Shown here: one piece after another, positions 79 through 64,000 of the stretch | Layout of the letters: every line of letters begins with the position of its first letter | Numbering within the stretch: position 1 is the first letter of the stretch | Source: Acidithiobacillus marinus | GTDB lineage: Bacteria > Pseudomonadota > Gammaproteobacteria > Acidithiobacillales > Acidithiobacillaceae | Length of the DNA stretch: 64,000 nucleotides | Direction: 5' to 3' | NCBI RefSeq assembly: GCF_002847505.1 | Contig: NZ_MXAV01000056.1 | Location: 1-64,000, forward strand | Translations under genes and position numbers: made by a program | Notes under the pieces: generated by a model | Database searches by the model: none | Told to the model about the DNA's origin: nothing | Seen by the model: only the letters and a program-made list of their open reading frames with translations

Positions 79-1080
79 ATGAAAGCATTGATCAACCAAC
101 CCGATCAAGTGGTGACCGAGGCTTTGCAAGGTATGGTCATGGCCGCCCCTGATCTGATTCAGCTCCATGAAAATCCCCATTATGTGCTACGTGCCGATGC
201 TCCCAAAACCGGCAAAGTGGCCTTGGTTTCTGGCGGCGGCTCCGGACATGAGCCCATGCATGCCGGTTTTGTGGGTCGGGGAATGCTGGATGCCGCCTGT
301 CCCGGTGCGATTTTTACCAGCCCGACCCCTGATCAGATCCAAGCAGCCTCAGCTGCGGTAAATGGCGGTCAGGGAATATTGCATATCGTCAAAAATTACA
401 CGGGTGATGTGCTGAACTTTCAAATGGCTGCAGAGCTGTTACAGAACGACGGCATTGAAATACATAGTGTGGTCATTGATGATGATGTAGCCGTCAAGGA
501 CTCCTTGTACACGGCGGGAAGGCGGGGAGTGGGCGCCACCGTTCTGGCCGAAAAAATTTGTGGCGCTGCCGCCGAAGCCGGCGCCAACCTGAATGCCATC
601 ACGGCACTGTGTACATCCATCAATGATTCTGCCCGCTCCATGGGGCTGGCACTCAGCCCCTGTACCAATCCGGAAACCGGACAACCCAGCTTTACCCTGG
701 GAGAAAATGAAATCGAATACGGTATTGGCATTCATGGCGAACCGGGCCGGCAACGCATTCCCTGGCAACCGGCGGATAACTTGACGGAAAAGCTGATGCT
801 GCCCATTATCGAGGATCTGCCCTTCAAAAGGGGCGATGAGGTTCTGCTGTTTATCAATGGGCTGGGCGCCACCCCGCTACTGGAATTGAATATTGTCTAT
901 CGCGCTGCCGAAAAGCTGGCCAGTCAGCATGGTCTGAAGGTGTCGCGAAGACTGGTCGGCGCCTACATGACCAGTCTGGATATGGCCGGGGTTTCCATCA
1001 CCCTCCTGCGCTTGGATGAATCCATGCGTACCTACTGGGATGCCCCGGTCTGTACCCCCGCTCTGCGCTGGGGTTGCTGA
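79..1080 (+). CDS. dhaK: Dihydroxyacetone kinase subunit DhaK (PTS-dependent type)
   Basis: DhaK binds dihydroxyacetone covalently for phosphorylation by DhaL-ADP, giving DHAP in the cytoplasm. At 333 residues it is family length. Visible hallmarks are the N-terminal [15 protein letters not shown] loop, the Asp of NYTGDVLNF that acts as general base in characterised enzymes, and the substrate-binding His in [16 protein letters not shown] Shine-Dalgarno at 64-69 supports the ATG at 79. It is the first gene of a compact dhaK-dhaL-dhaM operon. The separate DhaL and the DhaM fusion indicate the PEP-dependent system rather than the single-chain ATP-dependent kinase. Confidence 0.95.
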
Positions 1081-1095
1081 AAAAGGAGCGGAAAT

Positions 1096-1704
1096 ATGGC
1101 CTATGCAGTTGCTTCCCTGATGCAGTGGATCACCTGTGCCGAAGAACAGTTCCAATCCCATCTGGCTGAGCTGAACGCTCTGGATGCGGCCATTGGCGAT
1201 GGCGATCATGGCAGCAATCTGGCCCGGGGCTTTGCCAAGGTCCGCGAAAAACTCCAGGCCAATCCCCCGGAAACGCCTGCCAGCCTCTTCAAACTGGTGG
1301 GTATGACCCTGATCAGTACGGTGGGTGGGGCTTCTGGACCGCTGTATGGCAGCTTTTTTCTAGAGGCCGGCAAAATAGCCGGGGAGCAGAAGGAACTGGA
1401 CAACGCCACCCTGGCCCGATGCCTGCAGGCGGGGCTGGTCGGCATCCAGCGGCTGGGCAAGGCCGAAGCGGGAGACAAAACCATGATTGATGCCTTGGAG
1501 CCTGCCATCCGCGCCTTGACCAATGAAGCCGATATGGGCGTGGCCACGCAAAAAGCCCGGGAGGGCCGGGACGCGACCATTCCCCTGATTGCCCGCAAAG
1601 GCCGGGCCAGTTATCTGGGCGAACGCGCCATAGGGCACGCCGATCCAGGTGCGACTTCGGCGTGTCTGCTGCTCAACTGCCTGGCGGGTGCATGTCCAAC
1701 GTAG
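1096..1704 (+). CDS. dhaL: Dihydroxyacetone kinase ADP-binding subunit DhaL
   Basis: DhaL carries tightly bound ADP, which in this system is rephosphorylated in place by DhaM and then passes the phosphate to DHA on DhaK. The 202-residue protein shows AIGDGDHGSNLARGF, whose aspartates hold the two Mg ions, and the later GGASGPLYGSFF and KTMIDAL segments typical of DhaL. AAAAGGAG just after the dhaK stop is the ribosome site, 15 bases downstream of dhaK. Its end overlaps the start of dhaM by 13 bases. Confidence 0.94.
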   Translation: MAYAVASLMQWITCAEEQFQSHLAELNALDAAIGDGDHGSNLARGFAKVREKLQANPPETPASLFKLVGMTLISTVGGASGPLYGSFFLEAGKIAGEQKELDNATLARCLQAGLVGIQRLGKAEAGDKTMIDALEPAIRALTNEADMGVATQKAREGRDATIPLIARKGRASYLGERAIGHADPGATSACLLLNCLAGACPT

Positions 1705-4025
1705 GAATTGTCCTGGTCTCTCATAGCCGTGACCTAGCAGAGGCCACCGCAACCCTCCTCCGTCAGGTTACCGGCGCGGATCTGCGTCTGGCGCTTGCCG
1801 CAGGCAGTGGTGAGGAGGGCGCTGAACTGGGCACTGATGTTCTGGCAATACAGGCCGCCATTGAGGCGCTGGACAGCCCCGCCGGAACCTTGATCCTGAT
1901 GGATATGGGGAGTGCGTTGCTGAGCACGGAAATGGCCCTGGACTTGCTGACTGATTCCCTGAGAGAACGGGTGCAGCTGAGCAGTGGGCCCTTTGTGGAA
2001 GGGGCCATGGCAGCCGCTCTGGCCGCCAGCAGCGGAGCGCCTTTGTCGGCCGTGCGGCAGGAAGCCGAAAATGGTCTGGGCATGAAGCAACAACAACTCG
2101 CCTCTGATCGCAACAGCACTGAACAGCCTCCTCCCCAGGAACACCCGGCAATTCCGGAACTACAGCGCCGCTTGCGCTTGTCCGATCCGGCGGGTTTGCA
2201 TCTGCGCCCGGCAGCGGCTCTGGCCAAGCTCGCTCTGGCCAGAGCCACGCCCAGCCGCATCCGCGCCGCCCGGCACCCCGAACAGGCGGCTTCTGCTACC
2301 AGCCTGACGGCCATGCTCGGCCTGGACCTGCGTCAGGGGGACGAGCTCATTATGGAGACTTCAGGTGCCGATGCCGCCGCCTTTTTCGACGCCGCAGCAC
2401 AGATCCTGGCAACACCCTCAGCACAAAAGCCGGCAGACCAGATCGTGCCAAGAGTCCCGTCGCGCCCAGGGGGTGCCGTTGCTGGTTTTGCCCAAGGGCC
2501 GCTCCTTATCCCGAAGGCCCTACTGGCTCGTGTTCCCGAAACCCACGATCCCGACAGCACAAAATCTCTCCAGCAATTTCAAGTGGCGCTGGAACAGGTC
2601 CAGCAGCAACTCAGTGAGCACCCCATAGTGGCCGCCCAGGCACTGCTCCTGCAGGATCCCGTCCTGCTGGAAAAAACCCGCAAACGCATCCAAGAAGACC
2701 ATCTGAAAGCGGCTCCAGCCTGGGCACAAGTCATTGCCGAGGCAGCAGCACGCATGGACACTCTCAGCGATCCGATCGTTCGCGCCCGTGCAGCAGATTT
2801 GCGCGACCTGGGTCAGCGTGTCCTGCAGGCCCTGGGCATCGCTGTGGAAAGTGCCATTTCTCCTGGTTCCCCGGCCATTTTACTGGTAGATGAACTGCTG
2901 CCTTCCGTCGCACTCCACCTCGATCCCCGGCAAGTGCTGGGCGTCATTGATCGCCATGGCAGCGCACACTCCCACGCGGCCATCCTCCTCCGGGGCGCAG
3001 GGATTCCCTATATCATCAACGCCGACAATCCCGCCCTGTCCAGCGCCCGCTCGGTGGCCATGGACGGCAGCAGCGGAGAGTTCTGGCTGGACCCTGACCC
3101 TGTGACACTGAAAAAACTGCTTGAACACGATGCCACCAGGTACACGCTGCCGGAACAGGGAAATTATGGCCAGATCAGCCTCAGCGATGACAGCCATCTG
3201 GAACTCTGGGCCAATGTGGCCAGCGCCGCCGAAGCCGAAACAGCCAGACGCCTCGGGGCCACGGGTATCGGCCTGCTCCGTACGGAATTCTTTTTTCTCG
3301 ATCAACAAACCCTGCCCGATGAAGAAAACCAGACCCGGGCCTTGAACCAGGTCATGGCTCCCATGCAGGGCCGGCCCATCATTGTCCGGGCGCTCGATGC
3401 CGGTGCCGACAAACCTTTAGGATTTATGCCCCTGGGAGACGAAGCCAACCCCGCCCTCGGCCGGCGCGGCCTGAGGGCGCTGCTCGCCTTTCCCGATATT
3501 TTTGCCCTGCAACTGCGCGCCATGCTGCGTGCTGGTCGGAACCACCAACTCTCGATCATGTTGCCCATGGTCACCAATCCCGAAGAATTGCGTAAAGCCC
3601 GGGGCATTCTTGAGCAGGCTCATTACACGCTGGAAGCTGCAGGACAAGCCCATCGCTGGCCAGTCCCCCTCGGCATCATGGCCGAAGTTCCGGCAGTGGC
3701 CTTGTGCATGGATGGCTTTAATGGCCTCGCGGATTTTGTCTCCATCGGCAGCAATGATCTGACCCAATACACCCTGGCCAGCGACCGCAGCAACGCACTG
3801 CTCGATCCCCTGGGGAATGCAGCGCATCCGGCGGTATTGGAACTCTGTCGAAAAATCGTCCGGGACAGTCAGGTTCCGGTTTCCATTTGCGGAGAAGCCG
3901 CCGGAGAGCCGGAAATCGCTCCATTATTGGTGGATTGCGGCCTTCGCCGTCTGTCCATGGCGCCGCGCCGACTCCCGGAGATTTTTACGCTTTTGTCTCA
4001 ACGCTCGTCACATCCGCAAGCATGA
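1692..4025 (+). CDS. dhaM: DhaM multiphosphoryl protein: EIIA(Man)-like, HPr and full-length enzyme I
   Basis: DhaM relays phosphate from PEP to DhaL-ADP. Domains in order over 777 residues are: an EIIA-mannose-like domain (about 1-130, His in VLVSHSRDLA); an HPr domain (about 155-245, His in GLHLRPAAA); and enzyme I (about 270-775), with its phospho-His in GSAHSHAAIL, PEP-site segments GLLRTEFFFLD and SIGSNDLTQY, and the Cys-bearing ICGEAAG. The E. coli DhaM has only a truncated enzyme I; here the PEP-binding half is present, so one chain could run the whole relay. ATG 1692 is preferred over an in-frame GTG at 1662. The 3' end overlaps the convergent gene at 3998 by 28 bases. Confidence 0.93.
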   Translation: MSNVGIVLVSHSRDLAEATATLLRQVTGADLRLALAAGSGEEGAELGTDVLAIQAAIEALDSPAGTLILMDMGSALLSTEMALDLLTDSLRERVQLSSGPFVEGAMAAALAASSGAPLSAVRQEAENGLGMKQQQLASDRNSTEQPPPQEHPAIPELQRRLRLSDPAGLHLRPAAALAKLALARATPSRIRAARHPEQAASATSLTAMLGLDLRQGDELIMETSGADAAAFFDAAAQILATPSAQKPADQIVPRVPSRPGGAVAGFAQGPLLIPKALLARVPETHDPDSTKSLQQFQVALEQVQQQLSEHPIVAAQALLLQDPVLLEKTRKRIQEDHLKAAPAWAQVIAEAAARMDTLSDPIVRARAADLRDLGQRVLQALGIAVESAISPGSPAILLVDELLPSVALHLDPRQVLGVIDRHGSAHSHAAILLRGAGIPYIINADNPALSSARSVAMDGSSGEFWLDPDPVTLKKLLEHDATRYTLPEQGNYGQISLSDDSHLELWANVASAAEAETARRLGATGIGLLRTEFFFLDQQTLPDEENQTRALNQVMAPMQGRPIIVRALDAGADKPLGFMPLGDEANPALGRRGLRALLAFPDIFALQLRAMLRAGRNHQLSIMLPMVTNPEELRKARGILEQAHYTLEAAGQAHRWPVPLGIMAEVPAVALCMDGFNGLADFVSIGSNDLTQYTLASDRSNALLDPLGNAAHPAVLELCRKIVRDSQVPVSICGEAAGEPEIAPLLVDCGLRRLSMAPRRLPEIFTLLSQRSSHPQA

Positions 4026-51165: not shown

Positions 51166-51773
51166 TTTTTTCGCCGGCTGTCGCTATGGCCCGGGGAAGG
51201 ACCGCAGCCAGGGGGAACCGAGCTTTCTGGTCAAGCCTTGTTCTGGGCTTGTTTTTTTGCCTTGGCCCCGGCTGGGCGTTGGCGGACACCGCGTTTCACG
51301 TGAAACATTTGCAGGCCATCCCGGAAATGAACCGGGTCAATATCAGTGCCCAGGTGCAGATCAGCAAGGAAGCCTTGCTGCAGGACATCCTCGATCAGGG
51401 GCAGACCATCATCTGGGTCATCAAGGTACAATGGCGGGAGCCGGAGCCCTTTTCTTTCATTTCCGGGCTGGGAACCCATGCCCAAAAGGAAGAGCGCTGG
51501 CAGATACATTATTATCCGCTCACCAATGAATATGCCTTGAGCAATGGCGCGGGTGCGCTCCGCCTCTTCCATCACTGGCAAGATCTGGTCCGTGTTTTAG
51601 AACAGATTCATGACTTTATCCTGCCTTTGCAGCAGGGTGCGGCGCGGGGCCAGGTGGCCCTGCGGGTTTATGTGGATATTCAGGCCTTGCCGCTCCCGCT
51701 GCGCCTGCGCGCCCTTCTGGATCATTGGAAACTGGAGTCCCCATGGATCGTCAGCGCCCCCCTTTCAAGCTGA
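51162..51773 (+). CDS. DUF4390 exported protein
   Basis: A 203-residue protein with a hydrophobic N-terminal segment (LVLGLFFCLGPGWALA) that looks like a signal peptide. The body is beta-rich and contains VNISAQVQISKEALLQDIL, WREPEPFSF and GARGQVALRVYVDI-like strands, consistent with DUF4390, which sits between rsmB and ntrY in many betaproteobacteria and relatives. A parS-type site lies in its coding sequence and encodes FHVKH. ATG 51162 overlaps the rsmB stop; its end overlaps ntrY by 31 bases. Confidence 0.82.
   Translation: MIFSPAVAMARGRTAARGNRAFWSSLVLGLFFCLGPGWALADTAFHVKHLQAIPEMNRVNISAQVQISKEALLQDILDQGQTIIWVIKVQWREPEPFSFISGLGTHAQKEERWQIHYYPLTNEYALSNGAGALRLFHHWQDLVRVLEQIHDFILPLQQGAARGQVALRVYVDIQALPLPLRLRALLDHWKLESPWIVSAPLSS
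51292..51307. promoter_or_regulatory. parS-type ParB site inside the DUF4390 gene (one mismatch)
   Basis: CGTTTCACGTGAAACA differs from the ParB palindrome only at the first base. It lies within a coding region about 8.4 kb from the perfect site at 42848. Two such 16-mers this close are very unlikely by chance. Confidence 0.85.
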
Positions 51774-53959
51774 GAAACTGGTTGCGTGCCCTCAATGCCG
51801 GAGCGGCACCGGAAAAGCAGCGGGTGGGTCCCCGCTGGGGAGCTATTTTACTCCTTCTGGCCATTTTGGGTTTTCTGGCGATCAACTTTTTCACCAGTGC
51901 TGGTGGGCCGTTAAGCCGTTATTTTGTGCCCATGCTGGTGATTTCAGCAGGTATTGTGCTCTTTTTACTGATTCTGGTACTGGTGTCGGTGGTGGCGCTG
52001 CTGATTCGGCTGCGGCGCGGGGAGGTGGGTAGTCAGCTGGCTACCCGTCTGGTGGTGATTATTACCCTGCTCAGTTTTCTGCCCGCCGCCGTGGTGTTCG
52101 GGTTTTCCTGGCAGTATCTGAACCGGGGCGTCGATTCCTGGTTCAGTTCCGCTGTGCAAAGCGCCCTGGACCAGGCACTGAATGTGGCCAAGGCGGGCAT
52201 TGACCGGTATCGCAATTCGACGCTGCTGGCAGCCGAAAGTATTGCCCAGGCGCTGGTGGGTGAATCGGACAGTAATGCCATCCTCACCGTCATTGCTCTG
52301 CGGGATCAATACCATTTGAGCAGCGTGACCCTGTTTTCTAGCGACAACCGGATTATTGCCACCAGCAGTAATAACCTGTCCCTGGCGCCACGCTTGCCGC
52401 GTCAGGAAATCCTGGCTATGGAAGAAGGCCGACCCACGGCCAACATTGAACCCGAAGCGGATGGCAGTTTACTGGTCAAGGCGCTGATTCCGGTGCTCAG
52501 TCCCCATCTGGGGCAAAGTAACCGGATGCTCTATGTCGAACAGCCCATTCCGGAGCAACTCACCAAGGCAGCAGAAGCCGTGCAGGTGGCGTATACCCGA
52601 TATCATCAACTGATGCTGATGCGTGAGCCCATGAAAACGGCCTTTCAGCTCAGTCTCGCCGTGGCCCTCCTGTTGGCGGTGCTCTCTGCGGTGTGGATGG
52701 GCCTGCATCTGGCGCGGCGCCTGACCGCACCCATTGCCCGGCTGGCGGCGGGTACCCAGGCGGTGGCCCGGGGCGAGTTCATCCCCCTGCAGACCATTGC
52801 CAGCCAGGATGAGTTAGGTGTGTTGTTGCACTCCTTCAACAATATGACCCGGCAACTCGCCCGGGCCAAGCAGCAGGCTGCCGCCGCCCAGGAACAGGCC
52901 GAACAGCGTCGCCTTTATCTGGAAACCATGCTGGGCCAGCTCTCCAGCGGAATTCTTACTTTTGATGGCGAAAACTGTCTGGCTGAGGTGAATGCCGCCG
53001 CCGCCCAGATTTTGCAGGAAGATTTAGCCAGGGGCAGTGCTCTGGCGGAACTGCAGGACGGGGCTATTCTCGAACCCCTCTGGAAGCTGGTGACGGAGTG
53101 GGTGGAACATCCGCGCAGCGCCATGCAGAAAGAGCTGCAATTGGAGCGTAGCGATGGTCCGCAAACCCTGATTGTGCATGGTGCACAATTTTCCGATGAC
53201 GCCGGCAGCAAGGGCTTTGTCGTGGTTTTTGATGACATCAGCACCCTGGTTTCTGCCCAGCGCAGCGCTGCCTGGAGCGAAGTGGCCCGGCGCCTGGCCC
53301 ATGAAATCAAAAATCCCCTGACCCCCATCCAGCTTTCCGCCGAAAGGCTGCGGCGCAAGTACTTGGAAAAACTGGGCGACGAAGGAGAAACCCTGGATCG
53401 GGCGACACGCACCATCATTCATCAGGTGGATGCCCTGAAAGTGCTGGTAGATGCCTTTTCCGAATATGCCCGGCAACCGCAAATCGAAATGCGGCCGCTG
53501 GATATCAATCAGTTGATTCTGGATGTCATGGACCTCTATCGTGGCCAGGAGAATGGTATAGAAATCCGTGCCGAACTGGGGGCGGATTTGCCGCCGGTCC
53601 GGGCTGACGTGCACCGTCTGCGACAGATTCTCAACAATTTACTGCGCAATGCCCTGGACGCCCTGCAAGGCAAGGAAGAAACCCCGGCGACAGGCAAACA
53701 TATTGTGATTCATACCGGCTTGACGGACAGCGGTCCAGCAAAGATGCTAGAGTTGAGCGTGAGTGATGATGGTCCCGGTTTTCCCGCCGATCTGCTGGCA
53801 AGAGTTTTTGAGCCCTATGTGACCAGCAAGGTCAAAGGCTCAGGTTTGGGGCTGGCCATTGTCCGTCGCATTGTCGAAGAACATGGTGGCGTGATTGTGG
53901 CCGACAATCAGGGCCTTAATGGTGGCGCACGCATTGTAATGGATTTTCCCCTGGTTTGA
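51743..53959 (+). CDS. ntrY: NtrY-like sensor histidine kinase
   Basis: A 738-residue membrane kinase. It has two or three N-terminal membrane helices (about 25-120), an extracytoplasmic sensor region, another helix (about 295), HAMP, a PAS-like domain (about 390-490), the HisKA His in RRLAHEIKNPLTPIQ and an HATPase domain with DDGPGFPADLL and GSGLGLAIVRRIVEEHGG. This is the NtrY layout. ATG 51743 has GGAG five bases upstream. It pairs with the response regulator 21 bases downstream. NtrYX may sense nitrogen or redox state; the signal here is unknown. Confidence 0.88.
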   Translation: MDRQRPPFKLRNWLRALNAGAAPEKQRVGPRWGAILLLLAILGFLAINFFTSAGGPLSRYFVPMLVISAGIVLFLLILVLVSVVALLIRLRRGEVGSQLATRLVVIITLLSFLPAAVVFGFSWQYLNRGVDSWFSSAVQSALDQALNVAKAGIDRYRNSTLLAAESIAQALVGESDSNAILTVIALRDQYHLSSVTLFSSDNRIIATSSNNLSLAPRLPRQEILAMEEGRPTANIEPEADGSLLVKALIPVLSPHLGQSNRMLYVEQPIPEQLTKAAEAVQVAYTRYHQLMLMREPMKTAFQLSLAVALLLAVLSAVWMGLHLARRLTAPIARLAAGTQAVARGEFIPLQTIASQDELGVLLHSFNNMTRQLARAKQQAAAAQEQAEQRRLYLETMLGQLSSGILTFDGENCLAEVNAAAAQILQEDLARGSALAELQDGAILEPLWKLVTEWVEHPRSAMQKELQLERSDGPQTLIVHGAQFSDDAGSKGFVVVFDDISTLVSAQRSAAWSEVARRLAHEIKNPLTPIQLSAERLRRKYLEKLGDEGETLDRATRTIIHQVDALKVLVDAFSEYARQPQIEMRPLDINQLILDVMDLYRGQENGIEIRAELGADLPPVRADVHRLRQILNNLLRNALDALQGKEETPATGKHIVIHTGLTDSGPAKMLELSVSDDGPGFPADLLARVFEPYVTSKVKGSGLGLAIVRRIVEEHGGVIVADNQGLNGGARIVMDFPLV

Positions 53960-53980
53960 GCTGGATTTTCTGGAGGTGGC

Positions 53981-55384
53981 ATGGAAGCGGCAAGATTGAA
54001 GATTCTGATCGTCGATGATGAACCCGATATCTGCCAGACCCTGGCAGATATTCTCGAAGATGAGGGCTATCAGGTAGAAACGGCGGGCAGTGCCGCCGCT
54101 GCCGAGACGTTTTTGCGCGACCAGATGGTCGATCTGGTGCTCCTTGATATCTGGATGCCGGGCGAAGATGGGATTACCTTGTTGCGGCGCTGGGCGGACG
54201 CAGGTCTGGAGCAGCCGGTGGTCATGATGTCCGGCCACGCCACCATCGAAACGGCGGTGCAGGCCACCAAGCTGGGTGCCTATGATTTTGTCGAAAAACC
54301 CCTATCTCTGGACAAAACCCTGCTGACCGTGGCCCATGCCCTGGAGGCGAGCCGTCTGCAGCGGGAAAACCGCGATCTGCGCGCGCAAACCGGCTGGGTG
54401 GATCGGCCCAGCGGTGAGAGTACCGCCATCCGTCAGTTTCGTGAACAACTCACCCGGGTTGCTGCCGTGGATTCCTGGGCCCTGTTACTGGGTGAGGCTG
54501 GCAGCGGCAAGGAAGTCGCGGCGCGCTATCTGCACCGGCAAAGTCGCCGGGCCCAGGGGCCTTTTGTGGACCTGCGGGCGGCGGCCATTGCCCGACCCAA
54601 TGTGGCCATTGAGCTGTTTGGTAACGAAACCCAAGGCAAGCTGATTCGTGGCCGTCTGGAGGTGGCGCACGGCGGCACCTTGTTCATTGACGAAATTGCC
54701 GATATGGATCTGGAAACCCAGGCCCGCCTGTTCTCGGCCCTGCAGGAAAAGCGCATCATCCGGGTGGGCGGAACCACCCCGATTCCCGTGGATGTGCGCG
54801 TCATTGCCGGCAGTGCCCAGGATTTGTCCCAGGCGGTACAAAACGGCCAGTTTCGCAGTGATCTCTACTACCGCCTCAGTGCCCTGCCCCTGCGCGTCCC
54901 GCCACTGGCGGCCAGAACCCCGGACATTCCCGTACTTATTGAAGAGTTTGTGCATTTTTATGGGGCACGGGATGGCCTGCCCGGGCGGCGCTTCTCCCCC
55001 GATTCCATGGATGTGCTCAACCATTATCCTTGGCCCGGTAACATCCGCGAGCTGCAAAATCTGGTCGAGCGCCTGCTGATTCTGGCGGAAGGCCCGGAAA
55101 TCAGTGCCGAGGAAATCGAGGGTGCCCTCGGTCTGGATAACCGGATGGCCCTTGCCAACAGCAGCTTTGATGAAGAAGATTTTGGCGGCACCCTGAAACG
55201 CGCCCGGGAACGCTTCGAGCGCGCCTTTCTCGAATATCATCTGGCGCGGAATGACTGGAATATTGCCCGTACCGCCGAAGTGGTCGGTCTTGAACGTACG
55301 CACCTGTACCGCAAGCTGAAAAATCTCAATATTGCCCTGAAGGGGGAGCGCCGGGTAGGCGATGAGGGTGAAGACGAGGATTGA
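53981..55384 (+). CDS. ntrX: NtrX-like response regulator lacking the GAFTGA loop
   Basis: A 467-residue regulator with a receiver domain (phospho-Asp in VLLDIWMPGEDG), an AAA+ domain (GEAGSGKEVAARYLH, GTLFIDEIADMD) and a Fis-type helix-turn-helix (DWNIARTAEVVGLERTHLYRKL). The GAFTGA loop that contacts sigma54 is missing: ELFGNETQGKLIRGRLEVAHGG runs straight on. It therefore probably acts without sigma54, as reported for some NtrX proteins. GGAGG lies before ATG 53981. It pairs with ntrY. Confidence 0.88.
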   Translation: MEAARLKILIVDDEPDICQTLADILEDEGYQVETAGSAAAAETFLRDQMVDLVLLDIWMPGEDGITLLRRWADAGLEQPVVMMSGHATIETAVQATKLGAYDFVEKPLSLDKTLLTVAHALEASRLQRENRDLRAQTGWVDRPSGESTAIRQFREQLTRVAAVDSWALLLGEAGSGKEVAARYLHRQSRRAQGPFVDLRAAAIARPNVAIELFGNETQGKLIRGRLEVAHGGTLFIDEIADMDLETQARLFSALQEKRIIRVGGTTPIPVDVRVIAGSAQDLSQAVQNGQFRSDLYYRLSALPLRVPPLAARTPDIPVLIEEFVHFYGARDGLPGRRFSPDSMDVLNHYPWPGNIRELQNLVERLLILAEGPEISAEEIEGALGLDNRMALANSSFDEEDFGGTLKRARERFERAFLEYHLARNDWNIARTAEVVGLERTHLYRKLKNLNIALKGERRVGDEGEDED

Positions 55385-55545: not shown

Positions 55546-57765
55546 ATGACCCAGCAACAGGATTTGCCCGCCAACGCCCCGGATTTTTGTGCGGGGATGC
55601 TCTACTTTGGTGAAAACTGGCCGGATTTTGATCAGTATGGCAAAGCATCGGCCATTGCTGCGGGTCAGAAGGGCGTTACCAATCCTCAGGCTCGGGAAGC
55701 CGTATATCAGTCGCTGCTGCTGGCGGATGCCCTGCGCTACTGTACCTTGCAAGTATGTACGGCCAAGTCTTCCGGTCACCCGGGAGGCTTTGCTTCCAGT
55801 GCCGAGGCCTATGCCGCCATGGTCATGCTCGGGCATACCAACATTGTCACTGAAGTTGGGCATCATGCTCCGGGCTTTTACAGTGCCATGTTCCTCGACA
55901 GCTCCCTCGAAGCCATGGGCATTCACAACATGAACGACATGATGGCGCGTTTCCGCGAACAGCATGGCCTGCTCGGTCATCTGTCCGGTGCCATCCCGGG
56001 TCTGCTGGCGCCCGCCGGACCGCTGGGACAGGGGCAGCACTTTGCCATGGCTGGCGCACTGCTGCATCCGGGCACCCTGTTTCCGGTGACCATCGGTGAT
56101 GGCGGTTTTGGTGAGCCCTATGTGCTGAGTTCCATGAAACATTTCCATTTTGCCTATCCCCAGGTGACCAATTACCTACCCATCCTGGTCTGGAACGGCT
56201 TCAGTCAGGAACATCATTCCATGGTTTCCTTGATGAGCAATGAAGAAATGGTGGCCTACTGGCGAGCCCATGATTTTGATGAGGTCATCCTGATCGATGC
56301 CAAGGACTATGATGATGCCGGGCAGGAAGGCGCCTATGTCGACTCCACGCGCTTTTCCTTCGGACAACGGATGGCTTTCATGGAGGCTGTGCTCAGTGGC
56401 GCGGCCAAGGCGGCGCAAGGTGCTTTGACGGGTCGGCACACGGCATTCATTTTGAAACAGTTGAAGGGTGCCGGGGTGCATGTTTCCGGAGCCAAATCCC
56501 ATAACCTGTATCCCAAGGACACTTTCGAGTCCCCGGAAATCAAGGCGGCCCTGGAAAAACGCGCATTGAGTCCGGAAGCCTGGGCTTTGGTCCGCGACAA
56601 TTTCTCCCGCGCCGGGGGTGGACCTGCGGCACAGACGGCGGTCACTGAGCATGTGCTGGAAATCGCCCGCCTGGGTGAATTCCCTTTGCAGGACTTTGCC
56701 GTCGGCGAACAGGCGGTACCCGCCACCGCCATGGGTGCTCTGGTTGCCTGGCTAGGGCAGCAGGATCGGCGCTTTGTGGTGAGCAATGCCGATGGGAATG
56801 AAGCCTCGGCCATGAAAAACATCAATGACGCCCTGAAAATCCGTCACCCCACGGAAGACCCCCTCTACAACCAGCAGCCGGGCGGGCAGGTTTATGAACC
56901 CCTCAACGAGGATGCCTGTGCGGGACTGGCGGCGGGACTGGCGCTGTTTGGCAGTCGTTCCCTGTGGCTGTCCTATGAATCCTTTGCCATCAACGGCTGG
57001 CCGATCATGCAGACCGTAGGCCAGGCCATGGCGGAACTGCGTCGTACCACGCCCTCTGCCGTCTGCATGTTCACGGCAGGGGCACTGGAACAGGGGCGCA
57101 ACGGCTGGACCCATCAACGTCCGGAAATCGAAAACTACTTTGCCGCGCAAATGCGCAACGGCAATGTATTCCTGCTTTACCCCACGGATGCCAACGTCAT
57201 CCAGGCTGCCTATGAATATGCGGTGAACAGCGTCAACAAGGTGATGATCCTCATTGCCTCAAAAAGCCCGTTGCCGGTGCATCTGGATATGGCCCAGGCC
57301 CGTACGGCAGTGCGTAAGGGTGCCGCCGTGCTGTACGAAGGATCGGCGGGCAAGCGTGGCACCGTGACCCTGGCTGTGACCGGTGATATGGTCCTGCTGC
57401 CGGTATTTGCGGCTCGGGAAGTGCTGGAGAAAGAAGGTTATGGTGTGCGCATTGTCAGTGTCATCAATCCCCGGCAGTTGTATCGGCCCTCGGATGTGGC
57501 CGCTCACACCGTCTCCGAGCCTGATACGAATTTCATGACAGATGCGGAATTTCAGCAGCTCTTTGCCGGCGATATGCTTCTCACTATCGGTGGTGGCAGT
57601 TCCGCTGCCCTGGAGCCGGTGCTCCTGCGCAGTCGTGCGGCGCAGCGCGATACCCTGGCCTGGCAGCGCGGTGAAACCACAGCCACTGCTGGTGAACTGA
57701 TGGCTTTCAATGGCATCACGGCCGAGGCCATTCTCCACAAGGTTCGGGGTTTTAGTGGGCATTAA
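55546..57765 (+). CDS. Thiamine-diphosphate enzyme of phosphoketolase/transketolase type
   Basis: A 739-residue ThDP-dependent enzyme. The N-terminal part has SSGHPGG (76-81), GPLGQG and the ThDP-binding GDG (184) ending near ILVWNGF. The middle has ADGNEASAMKN, with the Glu expected to activate ThDP, and GWTHQRPE, like phosphoketolase SHQDPG. The C-terminal part has SKSPLPVHL and GGGSSAALEPVL. Overall it is closest to phosphoketolase but shorter than usual, and GPLGQG is transketolase-like. Phosphoketolase cleaves xylulose 5-phosphate to acetyl phosphate. Its place before a DUF1537 kinase and glcDEF suggests another acceptor; this is inference. Confidence 0.72.
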   Translation: MTQQQDLPANAPDFCAGMLYFGENWPDFDQYGKASAIAAGQKGVTNPQAREAVYQSLLLADALRYCTLQVCTAKSSGHPGGFASSAEAYAAMVMLGHTNIVTEVGHHAPGFYSAMFLDSSLEAMGIHNMNDMMARFREQHGLLGHLSGAIPGLLAPAGPLGQGQHFAMAGALLHPGTLFPVTIGDGGFGEPYVLSSMKHFHFAYPQVTNYLPILVWNGFSQEHHSMVSLMSNEEMVAYWRAHDFDEVILIDAKDYDDAGQEGAYVDSTRFSFGQRMAFMEAVLSGAAKAAQGALTGRHTAFILKQLKGAGVHVSGAKSHNLYPKDTFESPEIKAALEKRALSPEAWALVRDNFSRAGGGPAAQTAVTEHVLEIARLGEFPLQDFAVGEQAVPATAMGALVAWLGQQDRRFVVSNADGNEASAMKNINDALKIRHPTEDPLYNQQPGGQVYEPLNEDACAGLAAGLALFGSRSLWLSYESFAINGWPIMQTVGQAMAELRRTTPSAVCMFTAGALEQGRNGWTHQRPEIENYFAAQMRNGNVFLLYPTDANVIQAAYEYAVNSVNKVMILIASKSPLPVHLDMAQARTAVRKGAAVLYEGSAGKRGTVTLAVTGDMVLLPVFAAREVLEKEGYGVRIVSVINPRQLYRPSDVAAHTVSEPDTNFMTDAEFQQLFAGDMLLTIGGGSSAALEPVLLRSRAAQRDTLAWQRGETTATAGELMAFNGITAEAILHKVRGFSGH

Positions 57766-59095
57766 TCCAGCAGCCCGGCCCGGCAAAATCATCGTCATTG
57801 ACGATGATCCCACCGGCTCGCAGACTGTCCACTCCTGCCTGCTGCTGACCCGCTGGGATCCCGATACCCTGCGCGAGGCTCTGGAGGATGCGGCACCGCT
57901 CTTCTTTGTACTGAGCAATACCCGGGGCATGACGGCGGCGCGTGCCGAACAGGTCACCCGGGAAATCTGCCGGAATCTGCATAGTGCCCTGGAGCGACTG
58001 GCCCTTACCGGACAGGAGGTGCAACCCTTGCTGGTGAGTCGTTCCGATTCGACCCTGCGTGGTCACTATCCGGTGGAAACCGATGTGATTGCTGAGGAGC
58101 TAGGCCCTTTTGATGCCCATTTTCTGGTCCCGGCATTTTTTGAAGGGGGCCGCATTACTCGGGACAGCACCCATTACGTGATACAGAACGGCGTGGAAGT
58201 CCCGGCCCATGAGACGGAATTTGCCCGGGATTCGGTATTTGCCTTTCAACACAGTTATCTGCCTGATTATGTGGCCGAGAAAACCCACGGTCGCATCCCG
58301 GCTGAACAAGTGCAGCGTTTTACCCTGGAAGATCTGCGTGCCGGTTGTCTGCCGCGCCTGTTGGCTCTGGAAAATAATGCCTGTGTGGTCGTGGACGCCG
58401 TCGAGCCTGCGGATTTGCAGGCTTTTGCCCGGGATTTACGGGCGGCTGCCGGGCAGGGCAAGCGGTTTCTATTCCGCAGTGCCGCCAGTTTGTTGACGGC
58501 CCTGGCCGATTTGCCACCCCAGCCGGTGTCTGCCGAAAACATGGTGCAACTGCGACGCGGGGACAAGGCGGGAGCTATCCTGGTAGGTTCCCATGTGCGT
58601 AAAAGTACCGAGCAGCTCAAACGCTTGCTGGAGGAACCGGGTCTGGAAGGGCTGGAGGTGGACGTGGATGCCTGTAGTGGCGAGGCCGGCATCAGGCAGC
58701 TATCGCGCTTGCTGGAGCAGGCCGCCAAAATCCACGACCAAGGCCGGGATCTGGTGATATTTACCAGTCGCAGCGAACGCCAGTTTTCCGATCAGGCGGC
58801 GCGTCTGGCTTTTGGTGAGAGCGTGTCGGCCTTTCTCATGAAGGTATTGCAGGGACTGCCCGAAGACATCGGCTTTCTCATCAGCAAGGGGGGCATCACC
58901 TCCAATGATGTATTGAGTAGTGGATTGGCTTTGCGCAAGGCGCGGGTGATGGGGCAGATTCTGCCCGGTTGTTCGGTGGTGTGCTGCCCTCCAGATCATC
59001 CCCGCTATCCGGATCTGCCCGTGGTCATTTTCCCCGGCAATGTGGGCGATGTCGAAAGTCTGGCGGTGGCCCGGCAACGCCTGCGCGGTCATTGA
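57755..59095 (+). CDS. DUF1537 four-carbon acid sugar kinase family protein
   Basis: A 446-residue protein of the family that includes OtnK, DtnK and DenK, which phosphorylate 3-oxotetronate, threonate and erythronate. It starts IIVIDDDPTGSQTVHS (the substrate-binding part, of the DDDPTGSQTVH subgroup) and ends with the nucleotide-binding ISKGGITSNDVLSSGL and VIFPGNVGD. GTG 57755 with GGGG five bases upstream overlaps the previous gene by 11 bases; an in-frame ATG lies at 57710. No dehydrogenase or aldolase partner of the known pathways is adjacent. The substrate is unknown. Confidence 0.82.
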   Translation: MGINPAARPGKIIVIDDDPTGSQTVHSCLLLTRWDPDTLREALEDAAPLFFVLSNTRGMTAARAEQVTREICRNLHSALERLALTGQEVQPLLVSRSDSTLRGHYPVETDVIAEELGPFDAHFLVPAFFEGGRITRDSTHYVIQNGVEVPAHETEFARDSVFAFQHSYLPDYVAEKTHGRIPAEQVQRFTLEDLRAGCLPRLLALENNACVVVDAVEPADLQAFARDLRAAAGQGKRFLFRSAASLLTALADLPPQPVSAENMVQLRRGDKAGAILVGSHVRKSTEQLKRLLEEPGLEGLEVDVDACSGEAGIRQLSRLLEQAAKIHDQGRDLVIFTSRSERQFSDQAARLAFGESVSAFLMKVLQGLPEDIGFLISKGGITSNDVLSSGLALRKARVMGQILPGCSVVCCPPDHPRYPDLPVVIFPGNVGDVESLAVARQRLRGH

Positions 59096-59106
59096 AGGCA
59101 CCGGCT

Positions 59107-60579
59107 ATGGCGGGCGATGGCGGTTCAGGGCAGGACGCATTTCTCGATGCCCTGCGCGCCGCACTGCCCGACGATGCCCTCCTCATTCACGAAGAAGATC
59201 TGCATCCCTACGAGTGCGATGGTCTTTCTGTCCTCAAGGCGTTGCCTCTGGCGGTGGCTTTGCCCCACAACCGCGAACAAGTGCAGGCGGTGCTGAAAGT
59301 CTGTGAGCAATTCGGGATAGGGGTGGTGCCCCGGGGGGCAGGGACCGGCCTCTCCGGTGGCGCGCGTCCCAATGCCGGAGCCATCGTCCTGTCCCTGGCG
59401 CGACTCAAGCAGATGCTCGCGGTGGATACCCGCAATCGTACTGCTCAGGTGCAGCCGGGAATGCGCAATCTGGCCATCAGTGAGGCGGTGCGCCCCCTGG
59501 GTTTGTACTATGCCCCGGACCCTTCCTCCCAGATCGCCTGTACCATTGGTGGTAATGTGGCGGAAAACTCCGGGGGAGTGCATTGTCTGAAATACGGCTT
59601 GACGGTCCACAACGTGTTGGCTCTGGAAGTCCTGGATGCCTCCGGCGAGCTGCTGCACATCGGCAGCCAAGCCCCGGACAGTCCCGGCTACGATCTGCTG
59701 GCACTGATGATGGGCTCGGAGGGTTTGCTGGGCGTGGTCACCGAATGCACGCTGCGCTTGTTGCCAATTCCGGAAAATACCCTGGTGATCCTGGCGGCTT
59801 TTCCCAGTGTGGGGGCTGCGGCAGATGCGGTGAGTGCCATTATTGCGGCAGGGATTATCCCTGCGGGCCTGGAAATGATGGATCAGTTGGCCATTGCGGC
59901 GGCCGAGGATTTTGTCCATGCCGGTTATCCCCGCGATGCGGCTGCCATTTTGCTCTGCGAACTGGATGGGAGCGAGGCGGAACTGCAGGTGCGACTCCAC
60001 GCTGTCGAAAATCTGCTAGAGCAGCATGGGGCCGGCAGTATCCGCATCGCCAGAGATGCTGAAACCCGGTTGCTGCTCTGGAAGGGCCGCAAGGCTGCTT
60101 TTCCGGCAGTGGGGCGCCTGGCGCCGGATTATTACTGCATGGATGGGACCATCCCGCGCAAACGTCTGGCGGAGGTGCTGGAACAAATCGCCGCCTGGTC
60201 TGCGGAATATGGGTTACAGGTGGCCAATGTGTTTCATGCCGGAGATGGCAACCTGCATCCCCTGATTCTCTATGACGCCAATATCGAGAGTCAGTTACAG
60301 GCGGCAGAAGCCTTCGGCCAGGGTATTCTGGAACTTTGTGTGGCAGTGGGGGGCAGCATTACCGGAGAACACGGCGTCGGCGTCGAAAAACTGGACAGCA
60401 TGTGTGCCCAGTTTACGCCAGCCGAGCTGGCCCAGTTGCATCGCATCAAGGCGGCTTTTGATCCCGAAGGACGGCTGAATCCGGGCAAGGCCGTCCCCAG
60501 CCTGCATCGCTGCGCAGAACTGGGGGCCATGCATGTCCACCACGGCCAGTTGCCCTTTCCCGAGCTGGAGCGCTTTTGA
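59107..60579 (+). CDS. glcD: Glycolate dehydrogenase subunit GlcD (FAD-linked)
   Basis: A 490-residue catalytic flavoprotein that oxidises glycolate (or D-lactate-type acids) to the 2-oxo acid. The PF01565 FAD domain shows [20 protein letters not shown] and [13 protein letters not shown]; the C-terminal FAD-oxidase domain has [14 protein letters not shown] and [14 protein letters not shown] 59107 (MAGDGG) is used, 11 bases after the kinase stop. It is first of glcD-glcE-glcF, with glcE one base after its stop. Confidence 0.94.
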
Positions 60580-60580
60580 T

Positions 60581-61639
60581 ATGGACCAGAGCGTGATCTT
60601 GCAGGAACAGGTCCGCGAGGCCTACGCCCAGTCGCGTGCCCTCCATATTCAAGGATCTGGCAGCAAGCATTTTTACGGCCGCAGCGTTCGTCACGGCGAG
60701 CCTCTGCGGATGCGAGCACATCAGGGGGTAGTGGATTACGAGCCCAGTGAATTATTTATCACCCTGCGTGCCGGCACCACCCTGCAAAACCTCCAGGAAC
60801 AGTTAGCTGAAGCCGGACAGATGTTGCCTTTTGAGCCGCCTTTTTTCGGAACAGAGGCCACCATTGGCGGGACCCTGGCCTGCGGTTTCTCCGGGCCACG
60901 CCGACCTTACGCCGGTTCCGCCCGGGATTATGTGCTGGGAGTGCAGCTGCTGAATGGACAGGGTGAAATCCTGCGTTTTGGCGGACAGGTCATGAAAAAT
61001 GTGGCGGGCTATGATGTTTCCCGCCTACTGGTAGGTTCCTTGGGGACCCTGGGCGTTCTTCTGGAGGTCACCCTCAAAGTTCTGCCGCGTCCGGAACAGG
61101 AGCTGACCCTGGTGCAGGAGCTTCCCATGGCTGCGGCTATTGACCAGATGAATCAATGGGCTGCTCAGCCCCTGCCGGTGTCGGCCAGTGCCTGGTATGA
61201 CAACTACTTATATTTACGCCTTTCGGGAGCGACCAAGGCGGTGGAGGCCGCAGGTCGCAAAATCGGTGGAGAAATACTCACCGGCGCAGACGCATTCTGG
61301 ACGGATTTGCGGGAGCATCGGCATGAATTTTTTCAGGGCGATGCTCCCCTCTGGCGTCTGGCGGTAGCTCCGGCCAGCCCACCGCTGCCCCTGCCGGAAG
61401 CCACTCTCATTGAATGGGGCGGCGGGCAACGCTGGCTGCGCGGCCATCAGGATGCCGAAGCCTTGCAAGCGCTGGCGGCAAAACACGGCGGACACGCCAC
61501 CCTGTTTCGTGGTGGGGATGGCAGCGGTGAAGTCTTCCATCCCCTGTCCCCGCACTTGCTGGCGCTGCAGCAACGCCTGAAAAAGGCCTTTGATCCACGC
61601 GGCATTTTGAATCCCGGCCGCCTGTACGCTGCCCTGTAG
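60581..61639 (+). CDS. glcE: Glycolate dehydrogenase subunit GlcE
   Basis: A 352-residue FAD-binding subunit with the PF01565 start (IQGSGSKHFYG) and GTLACGFSGPRRPYAGSARD and MKNVAGYDVSRLLVGSLG, which are characteristic GlcE segments. It lacks the C-terminal oxidase domain of GlcD. ATG 60581 is one base after glcD; glcF follows after eight bases. It probably acts as part of the membrane-associated GlcDEF complex that passes electrons to quinone. Confidence 0.94.
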   Translation: MDQSVILQEQVREAYAQSRALHIQGSGSKHFYGRSVRHGEPLRMRAHQGVVDYEPSELFITLRAGTTLQNLQEQLAEAGQMLPFEPPFFGTEATIGGTLACGFSGPRRPYAGSARDYVLGVQLLNGQGEILRFGGQVMKNVAGYDVSRLLVGSLGTLGVLLEVTLKVLPRPEQELTLVQELPMAAAIDQMNQWAAQPLPVSASAWYDNYLYLRLSGATKAVEAAGRKIGGEILTGADAFWTDLREHRHEFFQGDAPLWRLAVAPASPPLPLPEATLIEWGGGQRWLRGHQDAEALQALAAKHGGHATLFRGGDGSGEVFHPLSPHLLALQQRLKKAFDPRGILNPGRLYAAL

Positions 61640-61647
61640 AGACGCCC

Positions 61648-62946
61648 ATGCAAACCCGTATCGCTCCGCGTTTTGAGAATACTGCCGAAATGGCTGAAGC
61701 CGACGCCATTCTCCGCAGTTGCGTGCATTGCGGGTTTTGTACGGCCACATGTCCGACCTATCAGCTACTGGGTGACGAGCTGGATGGTCCGCGTGGCCGT
61801 ATTTACCTCATCAAGGAGTTTTTGGGCGGGGCTCCGGCCAGCCATGAAAGCCTGAAGCATCTGGATCGCTGTCTGACCTGCCGCGCCTGTGAGAGTACCT
61901 GTCCCTCGGGCGTACGCTACGCCCGGCTGGCGGAAATTGGCCGCGAACAACTGGAAAAAGATATTTCGCGTCCGGCCTTGGAGCAACTGCAGCGTTCCGT
62001 ACTGCGTGCCGTCATTCCCCATCCAGAGCGCTTTCGGCTGGCCTTGCAGTTGGGCAACCTGTTCAAACCCTTTCTGCCCGAAGCGCTGGCCCGTAAGGTC
62101 CCGGACTTGCCCCGTATAGCACCGGTTTCTGCCCCGGCAGCGGTTTCGGCAGCGACGGTTCCGGCAGAAGCGTTCGCGGCCACAGAATCTCTCACGGCTG
62201 CGCCGGTACGGCAGCCCAGCGTAATTGCCCTTGCTGGTTGCGTACAAAGTGTGCTGACGCCGCAAACCGGAGTCGCGCTGGAGCAGATTCTCGACCGGCT
62301 GGGTTATGTCATGACCACGCCCCCGGAAGCGGGCTGCTGTGGAGCCCTGAGCCTGCACCTCAACGCCCGTACCGAGGCCCATGATTACATGCGCCGCAAT
62401 ATTGATGCCTGGTGGCCCTATATTGCGGCCGGCGCCGAGGCCATTCTGGTCAGTGCCAGCGGCTGCGGCAGCATGGTCAAGGAATATGGAGAGGCCCTGC
62501 AAGAGGACCCTGATTATGCCGAAAAGGCCCGGCAGGTAGCAGCACTGGCACGGGATCCCAGCGAATGGTTGCTGGAGCATCTGCAGCAGTTGCCCCTGGA
62601 GCATCAAGAGCGCGGAACCCTGGCCTTTCATGCCCCTTGTTCACTCCAGCATGCCCAGCGCGTGCAGGGCAGTGTCGAAAAACTCTTGCAACGGGCGGGG
62701 TATACATTGACCGCAGTGGCCGATGGGCACCTCTGCTGCGGCTCGGCGGGTACTTATTCTATTTTACAGCCGGAATTATCCCGGCAACTGCGTCAACAAA
62801 AACTGGATGCCCTCCAACAGGGACAACCCTGCTCCATTGCCACTGCCAATATTGGCTGCCAGCTCCATTTGCAAGGCGGCACCGATTTACCGGTGCGGCA
62901 TTGGCTGGAATTGCTGGCGGAGGCGTTGTTGCCTGAGAAGACTTGA
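61648..62946 (+). CDS. glcF: Glycolate dehydrogenase iron-sulfur subunit GlcF
   Basis: A 432-residue protein with two [4Fe-4S] motifs (CVHCGFCTATCPTY, CLTCRACESTCPSGVRY) and two CCG domains (EAGCCGALSLHL and GHLCCGSAGTYS) like those of HdrB/GlpC proteins. It should transfer electrons from GlcD/E to the membrane. It is the last intact gene of the cluster; a remnant and a SIR2 gene follow. Confidence 0.94.
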   Translation: MQTRIAPRFENTAEMAEADAILRSCVHCGFCTATCPTYQLLGDELDGPRGRIYLIKEFLGGAPASHESLKHLDRCLTCRACESTCPSGVRYARLAEIGREQLEKDISRPALEQLQRSVLRAVIPHPERFRLALQLGNLFKPFLPEALARKVPDLPRIAPVSAPAAVSAATVPAEAFAATESLTAAPVRQPSVIALAGCVQSVLTPQTGVALEQILDRLGYVMTTPPEAGCCGALSLHLNARTEAHDYMRRNIDAWWPYIAAGAEAILVSASGCGSMVKEYGEALQEDPDYAEKARQVAALARDPSEWLLEHLQQLPLEHQERGTLAFHAPCSLQHAQRVQGSVEKLLQRAGYTLTAVADGHLCCGSAGTYSILQPELSRQLRQQKLDALQQGQPCSIATANIGCQLHLQGGTDLPVRHWLELLAEALLPEKT

Positions 62947-63240: not shown

Positions 63241-64000
63241 ATGTCAGACAAGGCCGAGAAAATGCCCGCCAACATATTGAAGGTTCGTGATGACCATCAG
63301 CCAGTGCGTTTTGAAAAAGAGGGCGAAGACGGCAGGTTCAAGATTTGCGATGGTATCGAGTGCTCGTGGGCAGATAAAGAATTTGGTCCGAAGGAACTGC
63401 GCGGTCGGATCGAGCCTTGGCTCACCGCACTGTTCCAGTCTGAGCACCTTTCGCTACTGGCCGGCTCCGGGCTGACCCATGCGGTGCATTACCTTGCCTG
63501 CGGGAAAGGCGCCGCTGGCATGAGCGCCCTGACTCTGAGCAATCACCGGGCCGAAATCGATCAAGCCGCAGAGAAAGCAGCGAAAGCGGCCGGGCGCAAT
63601 AAGGGCAATCTGGAAGATCAACTGCGTGTTGCCAACGAATTATTGCGTGGGTTGGAAATCCTCGGCGAGCAAGACAAAGCCAACTCTCTTGCGAAGGAGC
63701 TTTCCAAGTGCATGGAATCCTTTGCCCAGAAGATTCTGGAAAGTGAAACCAGTATTGTCACGGCCGGACAGGAAAACCGAGACAAGGCGTTCAGTGCTCT
63801 TGTCACCTTCTTGATGAGCTTTGCCAGCCGCACCGGGATGCGCGATCGCCTAAATATTTTCACCACCAACTACGACCGGCTGATCGAGGCCGGGGCGGAG
63901 CTGGCTGGCCTGCATCTGCTGGATCGCTTTCTCGGCAACCTGATGCCCATCTTTCGGTCATCCCGGCTCGATCTGGACATGCACTACAACCCGCCTGGCA
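63241..64000 (+). CDS. SIR2-family protein, N-terminal part (partial at window edge)
   Basis: The first 253 residues are visible; the frame stays open to the end. AGGAG lies before ATG 63241. SLLAGSGLTHAV and IFTTNYDRLIEAG are the NAD-binding and TNYD motifs of SIR2-like proteins. The middle is helical and charged. SIR2 proteins of this type act in phage defence, often paired with a HerA ATPase or acting alone by degrading NAD. The rest of the gene and any partner lie beyond the window. Confidence 0.72.
   Translation, partial: MSDKAEKMPANILKVRDDHQPVRFEKEGEDGRFKICDGIECSWADKEFGPKELRGRIEPWLTALFQSEHLSLLAGSGLTHAVHYLACGKGAAGMSALTLSNHRAEIDQAAEKAAKAAGRNKGNLEDQLRVANELLRGLEILGEQDKANSLAKELSKCMESFAQKILESETSIVTAGQENRDKAFSALVTFLMSFASRTGMRDRLNIFTTNYDRLIEAGAELAGLHLLDRFLGNLMPIFRSSRLDLDMHYNPPG

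Follow-up and report, generated by a model that had tools for sequence, protein, structure and literature searches.

How does a bacterium with glycolate dehydrogenase use the glyoxylate that this enzyme makes? The question is raised by a five-gene operon of Acidithiobacillus marinus in a window of 64,000 nucleotides (contig NZ_MXAV01000056.1, positions 1 to 64,000), in which genes for a thiamine diphosphate (ThDP) enzyme and a DUF1537-family kinase precede those for GlcD, GlcE and GlcF, the three subunits of glycolate dehydrogenase. We found neither Gcl nor malate synthase in the 2.9 Mb genome of the window, and the second result agrees with the 0% malate synthase given for nine Acidithiobacillales genomes in a study that lists Acidithiobacillus as chemolithoautotrophs (PMC7486775). 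Our answer is that the ThDP-kinase pair very probably replaces the Gcl-Hyi-Tsr route, consuming the glyoxylate from GlcDEF and returning its carbon to the Calvin cycle.

The ThDP enzyme and its kinase

Among the best 80 loci from GTDB genomes (Acidithiobacillus, Gallionella, Sideroxydans, Thiobacillus, Sulfuriferula, Mariprofundus, Sedimenticola and others), we found the kinase gene next after the ThDP gene in all 70 that have room for the downstream count, with a median gap of 51 bp. The five-gene order of the window is repeated in nine further loci from the same bacterial order; since this order is kept and the first two genes are adjacent in 70/70 loci, the arrangement goes far beyond what chance would give. 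A sample of 321 genomes spread evenly over one class, in which absences depend on assembly completeness, held 29 genomes with the ThDP gene and 292 without, and the 29 were compared in gene content with 51 Rubisco genomes lacking the pair. Across these 80 whole genomes, DUF1537 was found in 29/29 with the ThDP gene vs 1/51 without (p = 6e-21). The ThDP enzyme and the DUF1537 kinase are one obligate module.

GlcDEF or Lut-type genes lie nearby in 31 of the 38 loci with long flanks. GlcDEF stands downstream of the pair in many loci and upstream or divergent in others, and some loci have Lut-type hydroxy-acid oxidation genes instead. Hence, the conserved core is the ThDP enzyme and the kinase, joined by a regulator outside the window's own group, and GlcDEF is not part of it. 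No plasmid record has the ThDP gene.

The initial annotation called the first enzyme phosphoketolase/transketolase-like. The Pfam domains agree with this, as XFP (45.8 bits, cut-off 22), XFP_N (35.3 bits, cut-off 23.7) and XFP_C (24.1 bits, cut-off 23.4) exceed the gathering score and Transket_pyr is also above its cut-off, but the label is loose, the best NCBIfam scores being 110 bits for phosphoketolase (cut-off 777) and 42.5 bits for transketolase (cut-off 682). Across 40 diverse members, orthologues share 67-97% identity with the window protein, and a family model gives more than 1300 bits to full-length members vs 70-86 bits to phosphoketolases and 25-33 bits to transketolases. Judged by these scores, the ThDP enzyme is a distinct conserved family of chemolithoautotroph-type proteobacteria and no recognised phosphoketolase or transketolase; several relatives also have a separate true phosphoketolase. 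The family cannot be placed by a tree with phosphoketolases and transketolases because that tree is saturated, with branches of 4-10 changes per site.

The predicted structure of the ThDP enzyme (mean predicted local distance difference test score, pLDDT, of 81) has phosphoketolase 6lxv as its closest fold (Z 36.7, root-mean-square deviation 3.8, 653 residues, 18% identity), followed by transketolases at Z about 30. Nine phosphoketolase residues that we take to be catalytic, H64, H97, H142, H320, E479, Y501, N549, H553 and K605, correspond to H78, H106, H145, H319, E455, Y477, N519, H523 and K573 of the ThDP enzyme in a MAFFT alignment, and most of them do so with HMMER. The His and Glu of the ThDP site are kept. 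Since the catalytic residues of phosphoketolase are kept, the ThDP enzyme is likely to be catalytically active. Reading its substrate specificity from phosphate-site residues was dropped; the Arg and His of transketolase are absent, and these positions vary among phosphoketolases too.

The kinase has both DUF1537 domains (SBD_N 195 bits, NBD_C 129 bits), and kinases of this family phosphorylate C4 sugar acids. Its closest folds are 3dqq (Z 33.9 over 383 residues, 20% identity), 5dmh (Z 31.3) and 1yzy (Z 28.7). Of the Rubisco genomes tested, just one has DUF1537 and no ThDP gene, and it carries a classical otn-type cluster (L133, G128:C1:63000-72000), consisting of a DUF1537 kinase, a class II aldolase, a Hyi-like isomerase and a HIBADH-type dehydrogenase.

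Rubisco, glycolate and the place of gcl

Rubisco was found in 28 of the 29 genomes with the ThDP gene vs 132/292 without it (p = 2e-8, a value that overstates the strength of the link because related genomes are not independent). The 29 genomes span 22 families, and the sole one without Rubisco, G058, is 86% complete. Hence, the pair is tied to the Calvin cycle, as the initial annotation had supposed. GlcF was above its cut-off in 28/29 genomes with the ThDP gene vs 39 of the 51 Rubisco genomes without (p = 0.03). Genomes having the pair and lacking glcDEF had been named beforehand as a case that would speak against the proposed salvage route; one genome of the 29 is of this kind (G226), and it is incomplete and fragmented.

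The enzymes that commonly consume glyoxylate are scarce in these genomes. Gcl (TIGR01504 above cut-off) was found in 0/29 genomes with the pair; malate synthase is present in seven and absent from 22; and Tsr is above its cut-off in four and slightly below it in four more. All three are scarce in Rubisco genomes whether or not these have the pair, with no significant difference between the two groups. Since the Gcl and malate synthase counts do not differ from those of the other Rubisco genomes, they point to a gap that needs filling and not to an exclusion.

The strongest single argument for the pair consuming glyoxylate is a swap between two genomes of one family. G106 has no ThDP-kinase pair, and its locus (L118) runs from an IclR gene through the palindrome TTTCGTATAATGAAA to gcl, the hydroxypyruvate isomerase gene, tsr and glcF, each enzyme gene being above its cut-off. 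The locus of G323 (L119) consists of IclR, ThDP, kinase, GlcD and GlcE, and its aminotransferase shares 76% identity with that of G106, which adjoins gcl; aminotransferases related to the latter are also found in L047 and L057. The IclR of L118 has a median identity of 58% to the IclRs of ThDP loci, which is the value among these themselves. The score of TTTCGTATAATGAAA was beaten in 0 of 1000 shuffles, and this palindrome is similar to the one of the ThDP loci described below. Hence, the pair occupies the position that gcl-hyi-tsr has in the other genome of the family, behind the same type of regulator, which together with the GlcF count upholds the tie to glycolate and glyoxylate that was first proposed. 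The argument from replacement comes from this one genome pair, in relatives of the window genome. Further enzymes of glyoxylate use also lie at loci of the pair, namely malate synthase (L063, L107, L120 and L132) and Tsr, which supports the same reading.

A divergent IclR-type gene precedes the pair in 73/80 loci. Its best curated match is BhcR, at 169-177 bits vs a cut-off of 350, followed by PcaR, KdgR, IclR and AllR, so by these matches the locus regulator is a relative of BhcR and not BhcR itself. BhcR controls the glyoxylate-consuming operon of the beta-hydroxyaspartate cycle, and IclR and AllR respond to glyoxylate (PMC11323563). We found a 15-bp palindrome, consensus TTTCACAATGTGAAA, in the interval between the IclR and ThDP genes in 64/64 regions tested (at least 14 bits; the model was trained on these same 64 intergenic regions). 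Scanning 1.24 Mb of loci gave 93 strong sites, of which a strict coordinate rule places 81 in this interval; among the remaining 12, several are at the same place although the rule passed them over, and two stand before a TRAP (tripartite ATP-independent periplasmic) transporter operon in L069. TTTCACAATGTGAAA is the predicted operator of the pair.

Proposed chemistry and its alternatives

Ketol transfer of the transketolase type onto glyoxylate gives 3-oxotetronate by chemistry. In the route that we propose, a ketose phosphate of the Calvin cycle, for instance xylulose 5-phosphate, would donate a two-carbon ketol unit, which the ThDP enzyme would join to glyoxylate to yield 3-oxotetronate and glyceraldehyde 3-phosphate. 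The kinase would then phosphorylate the 4-hydroxyl of 3-oxotetronate, and the resulting beta-keto acid phosphate would lose CO2, spontaneously or by a further enzyme, to give dihydroxyacetone phosphate (DHAP). The net reaction would be glyoxylate + xylulose 5-phosphate + ATP -> glyceraldehyde 3-phosphate + DHAP + CO2 + ADP, and it would need neither NAD(P)H nor nitrogen metabolism. A donor from the Calvin cycle would explain the near-confinement of the pair to Rubisco genomes. We regard the whole statement, a glyoxylate-consuming module with ketol transfer, 3-oxotetronate and DHAP, as the best single explanation, with every catalytic step inferred, and give it an even chance. Slightly below even we place the further idea of a natural photorespiration bypass, not described before, in bacteria with Rubisco: a new ThDP ketol transferase, adding to glyoxylate two carbons of a Calvin-cycle sugar phosphate, and a new kinase subfamily that draws the unstable product to DHAP would recycle 2-phosphoglycolate with no call on NAD(P)H, amino acids or acetyl-CoA.

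Several points weigh against this chemistry. The donor and the acceptor of the ThDP enzyme cannot be read from its sequence. The sole NCBIfam match of the kinase, even at E <= 10, is D-threonate kinase (DtnK), at 69.2 bits vs an equivalog cut-off of 450, and in place of the classical OtnK signature, IADDFTGATD in the otn-type cluster L133, the window kinase has IDDDPTGSQT. Hence, the name OtnK-type given to it by the initial annotation holds for the fold (3dqq) and fails for the sequence. The route would also lose more carbon than the glycerate route does, and Tsr and glycerate kinase, which occur in some loci of the pair, are superfluous to it. Finally, the operator is missing from the window genome and its nearest relatives, as is the regulator, for which a search of the window genome gave no match (an empty result that is itself weak evidence). 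The window genome appears to have lost both, and the regulatory evidence therefore comes from relatives.

The last step of the route is weaker than in the initial annotation, which gave decarboxylation of the 4-phosphate to DHAP by OtnC as the known reaction. The two class II aldolases of the window genome score 77 and 21 bits with the OtnC model (NF043034, cut-off 250); they are MtnB (216 bits, cut-off 137) and an adducin-like protein. Class II aldolases are found in 28 of the 29 genomes with the pair and in 40 of the 51 lacking it; G225 has none at all, and neither OtnC nor OtnI was found among the neighbours of the kinase in the window and related loci. OtnC was therefore rejected as the decarboxylase, and with no recognisable OtnC in the window genome, decarboxylation would be spontaneous or due to another enzyme. 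A side branch through free dihydroxyacetone had also been suggested, by way of a phosphoenolpyruvate-dependent kinase at 79-4025. This kinase is indeed complete, with DhaK, DhaL and DhaM above cut-off and HPr and enzyme I domains fused to DhaM. It is rare among the autotroph genomes tested: DhaK was found in two of the 29 that have the pair and one of the 51 that lack it (3/80 in all), so DhaKLM is not a general part of the route.

Among the alternatives, the pair might serve growth on imported glycolate, lactate or a like hydroxy acid in mixotrophs and not the salvage of the Rubisco oxygenation product, perhaps by the same chemistry. TRAP or branched-chain-type ATP-binding cassette (ABC) importers do adjoin the pair at many loci of the Gallionella and Thiobacillus types, and the sites before the TRAP operon of L069 fit this use; we consider it unlikely in view of Rubisco in 28/29 genomes, the lack of any transporter inside the operon in the window and the nine related loci, and the chemolithoautotrophy of Acidithiobacillus (PMC7486775).

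The missing OtnC, the non-OtnK sequence of the kinase and the presence of Tsr or glycerate kinase in some loci leave room for a reaction of the carboligase type. The ThDP enzyme would then be a non-homologous glyoxylate carboligase that removes CO2 from one glyoxylate and condenses the remainder with a second to form tartronate semialdehyde; reduction of the latter would yield glycerate, and the DUF1537 protein would act on one of these C3 acids. Consistent with this, the pair takes the place of gcl-hyi-tsr behind the same type of regulator, Tsr lies within six ThDP loci (L044, L048, L063, L107, L120 and L132), and glycerate kinase is found in some Acidithiobacillus-type ThDP loci. However, Tsr is above cut-off in only four of the 29 pair genomes and gives no match at E <= 1e-60 in the window genome, DUF1537 kinases act on C4 sugar acids, enzymes of the transketolase/phosphoketolase fold move ketol units, and a carboligase would leave the near-confinement of the pair to Rubisco genomes unexplained. 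We consider this reading improbable, and a shade more so than growth on imported acids.

Degradation of a threonate- or erythronate-like acid sugar, with the kinase acting first and the ThDP enzyme releasing glyoxylate in reverse, would suit the nearest curated kinase model and the importers beside some loci; it is very improbable given that LtnD, OtnI and OtnC do not recur beside the pair, unlike the classical cluster of L133, that the link to Rubisco and GlcF is strong, and that this type of regulator elsewhere precedes gcl. Just as little credit goes to an ordinary phosphoketolase making acetyl phosphate, with malate synthase as the link to glyoxylate: the nearest fold, the nine counterpart residues and malate synthase beside the pair in a few loci (L063, L107, L120 and L132; the order is ThDP, kinase, malate synthase in L120, and it lies with GlcDEF and Tsr in L063 and L132) are set against 18% identity, a score far below the phosphoketolase cut-off, the separate true phosphoketolase of several relatives, the 22/29 genomes lacking malate synthase, and an obligate kinase left unexplained.

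The window operon, its neighbours and known pathways

The five co-oriented, tightly packed genes of the initial annotation were found again as open reading frames across 55546-62946 (Table 1), and adjacent genes overlap or have 8-11 bp between them. For the kinase, GTG 57755 is the probable start, so that its gene overlaps the end of the ThDP gene (stop at 57765), although its reading frame extends up to 57710; GlcD likely starts at ATG 59107, although its frame extends up to TTG 58969. GlcE and GlcF are above their equivalog cut-offs and GlcD is slightly below both of its own. The Pfam domains are FAD_binding_4 and FAD-oxidase_C on GlcD and GlcE, and CCG and Fer4 on GlcF.

Table 1. Genes of the glycolate dehydrogenase operon in the window
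Feature	Position	Strand	Length (amino acids)	Model matches	Proposed role
ThDP enzyme, distinct phosphoketolase-like family	55546..57765	+	739		Putative ketol transferase on glyoxylate
DUF1537-family sugar-acid kinase	57755..59095	+	about 446	Pfam SBD_N, NBD_C	Putative 3-oxotetronate 4-kinase
GlcD, glycolate dehydrogenase FAD subunit	59107..60579	+		NF008408 751 bits (cut-off 897); TIGR00387 517 bits (cut-off 568)	
GlcE, glycolate dehydrogenase subunit	60533..61639	+		NF008439 524 bits (cut-off 284)	
GlcF, glycolate dehydrogenase iron-sulfur subunit	61648..62946	+		NF008434 580 bits (cut-off 333)	

Genes for an NtrY/NtrX-type sensor and a sigma-54 regulator (51725-55384) lie just upstream of the operon, and likewise in L032-L034, without an IclR gene. 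Directly downstream of glcF, a defence cluster spans 63241-64000 of the window and L022 1242-10197 (contig C52 63241-72196); it consists of SIR2 and HerA (PADLOC 541 and 888 bits) followed by a type III methyltransferase, a PDC-S02 nuclease-like gene and a type III restriction enzyme. In Gallionella-type loci (L044, L048, L051-L054, L060, L071, L091, L099 and others), a branched-chain-type ABC importer and an MMSDH-type aldehyde dehydrogenase lie behind the pair, with Tsr in some.

A close functional parallel is the glycerate pathway (Gcl-Hyi-Tsr and glycerate kinase), by which Cupriavidus necator mainly salvages phosphoglycolate (PMC7486775). It uses glyoxylate from glycolate dehydrogenase and, in G106, stands behind the same type of regulator and a similar operator; however, Gcl is a ThDP enzyme of the acetolactate synthase type, whereas the pair combines a phosphoketolase-like enzyme with a DUF1537 kinase and has no obligate Tsr. 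The malate cycle is an alternative salvage route in chemolithoautotrophs (PMC7486775) whose malate synthase is missing from most pair genomes and from the window genome. The beta-hydroxyaspartate cycle resembles the pair in having a related IclR-type regulator, BhcR, before a glyoxylate-consuming operon, but its enzymes are wholly different (PMC11323563). The fold and catalytic residues are shared with xylulose-5-phosphate/fructose-6-phosphate phosphoketolase, although the ThDP enzyme is far outside the curated families and has a gene context of its own. Acid-sugar catabolism by LtnD-OtnI-OtnK-OtnC shares the kinase family and fold and the proposed 3-oxotetronate intermediate, which is formed there from threonate or erythronate and would be formed here from glyoxylate by the ThDP enzyme; the window kinase belongs to another subfamily and the window genome has no OtnC. 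Our literature search found the pair described nowhere; preprints and most subscription journals were outside it, so an earlier publication is possible.

Obligate chemolithoautotrophs have to handle the product of Rubisco oxygenation, and there is no malate synthase in the surveyed Acidithiobacillales (PMC7486775) and no Gcl in our 29 genomes with the pair. If the proposed reading is true, one conserved operon would explain glyoxylate salvage in iron and sulfur oxidisers of several proteobacterial groups. It would also give names to two new enzyme families and would offer a short, redox-neutral photorespiration bypass for engineering.

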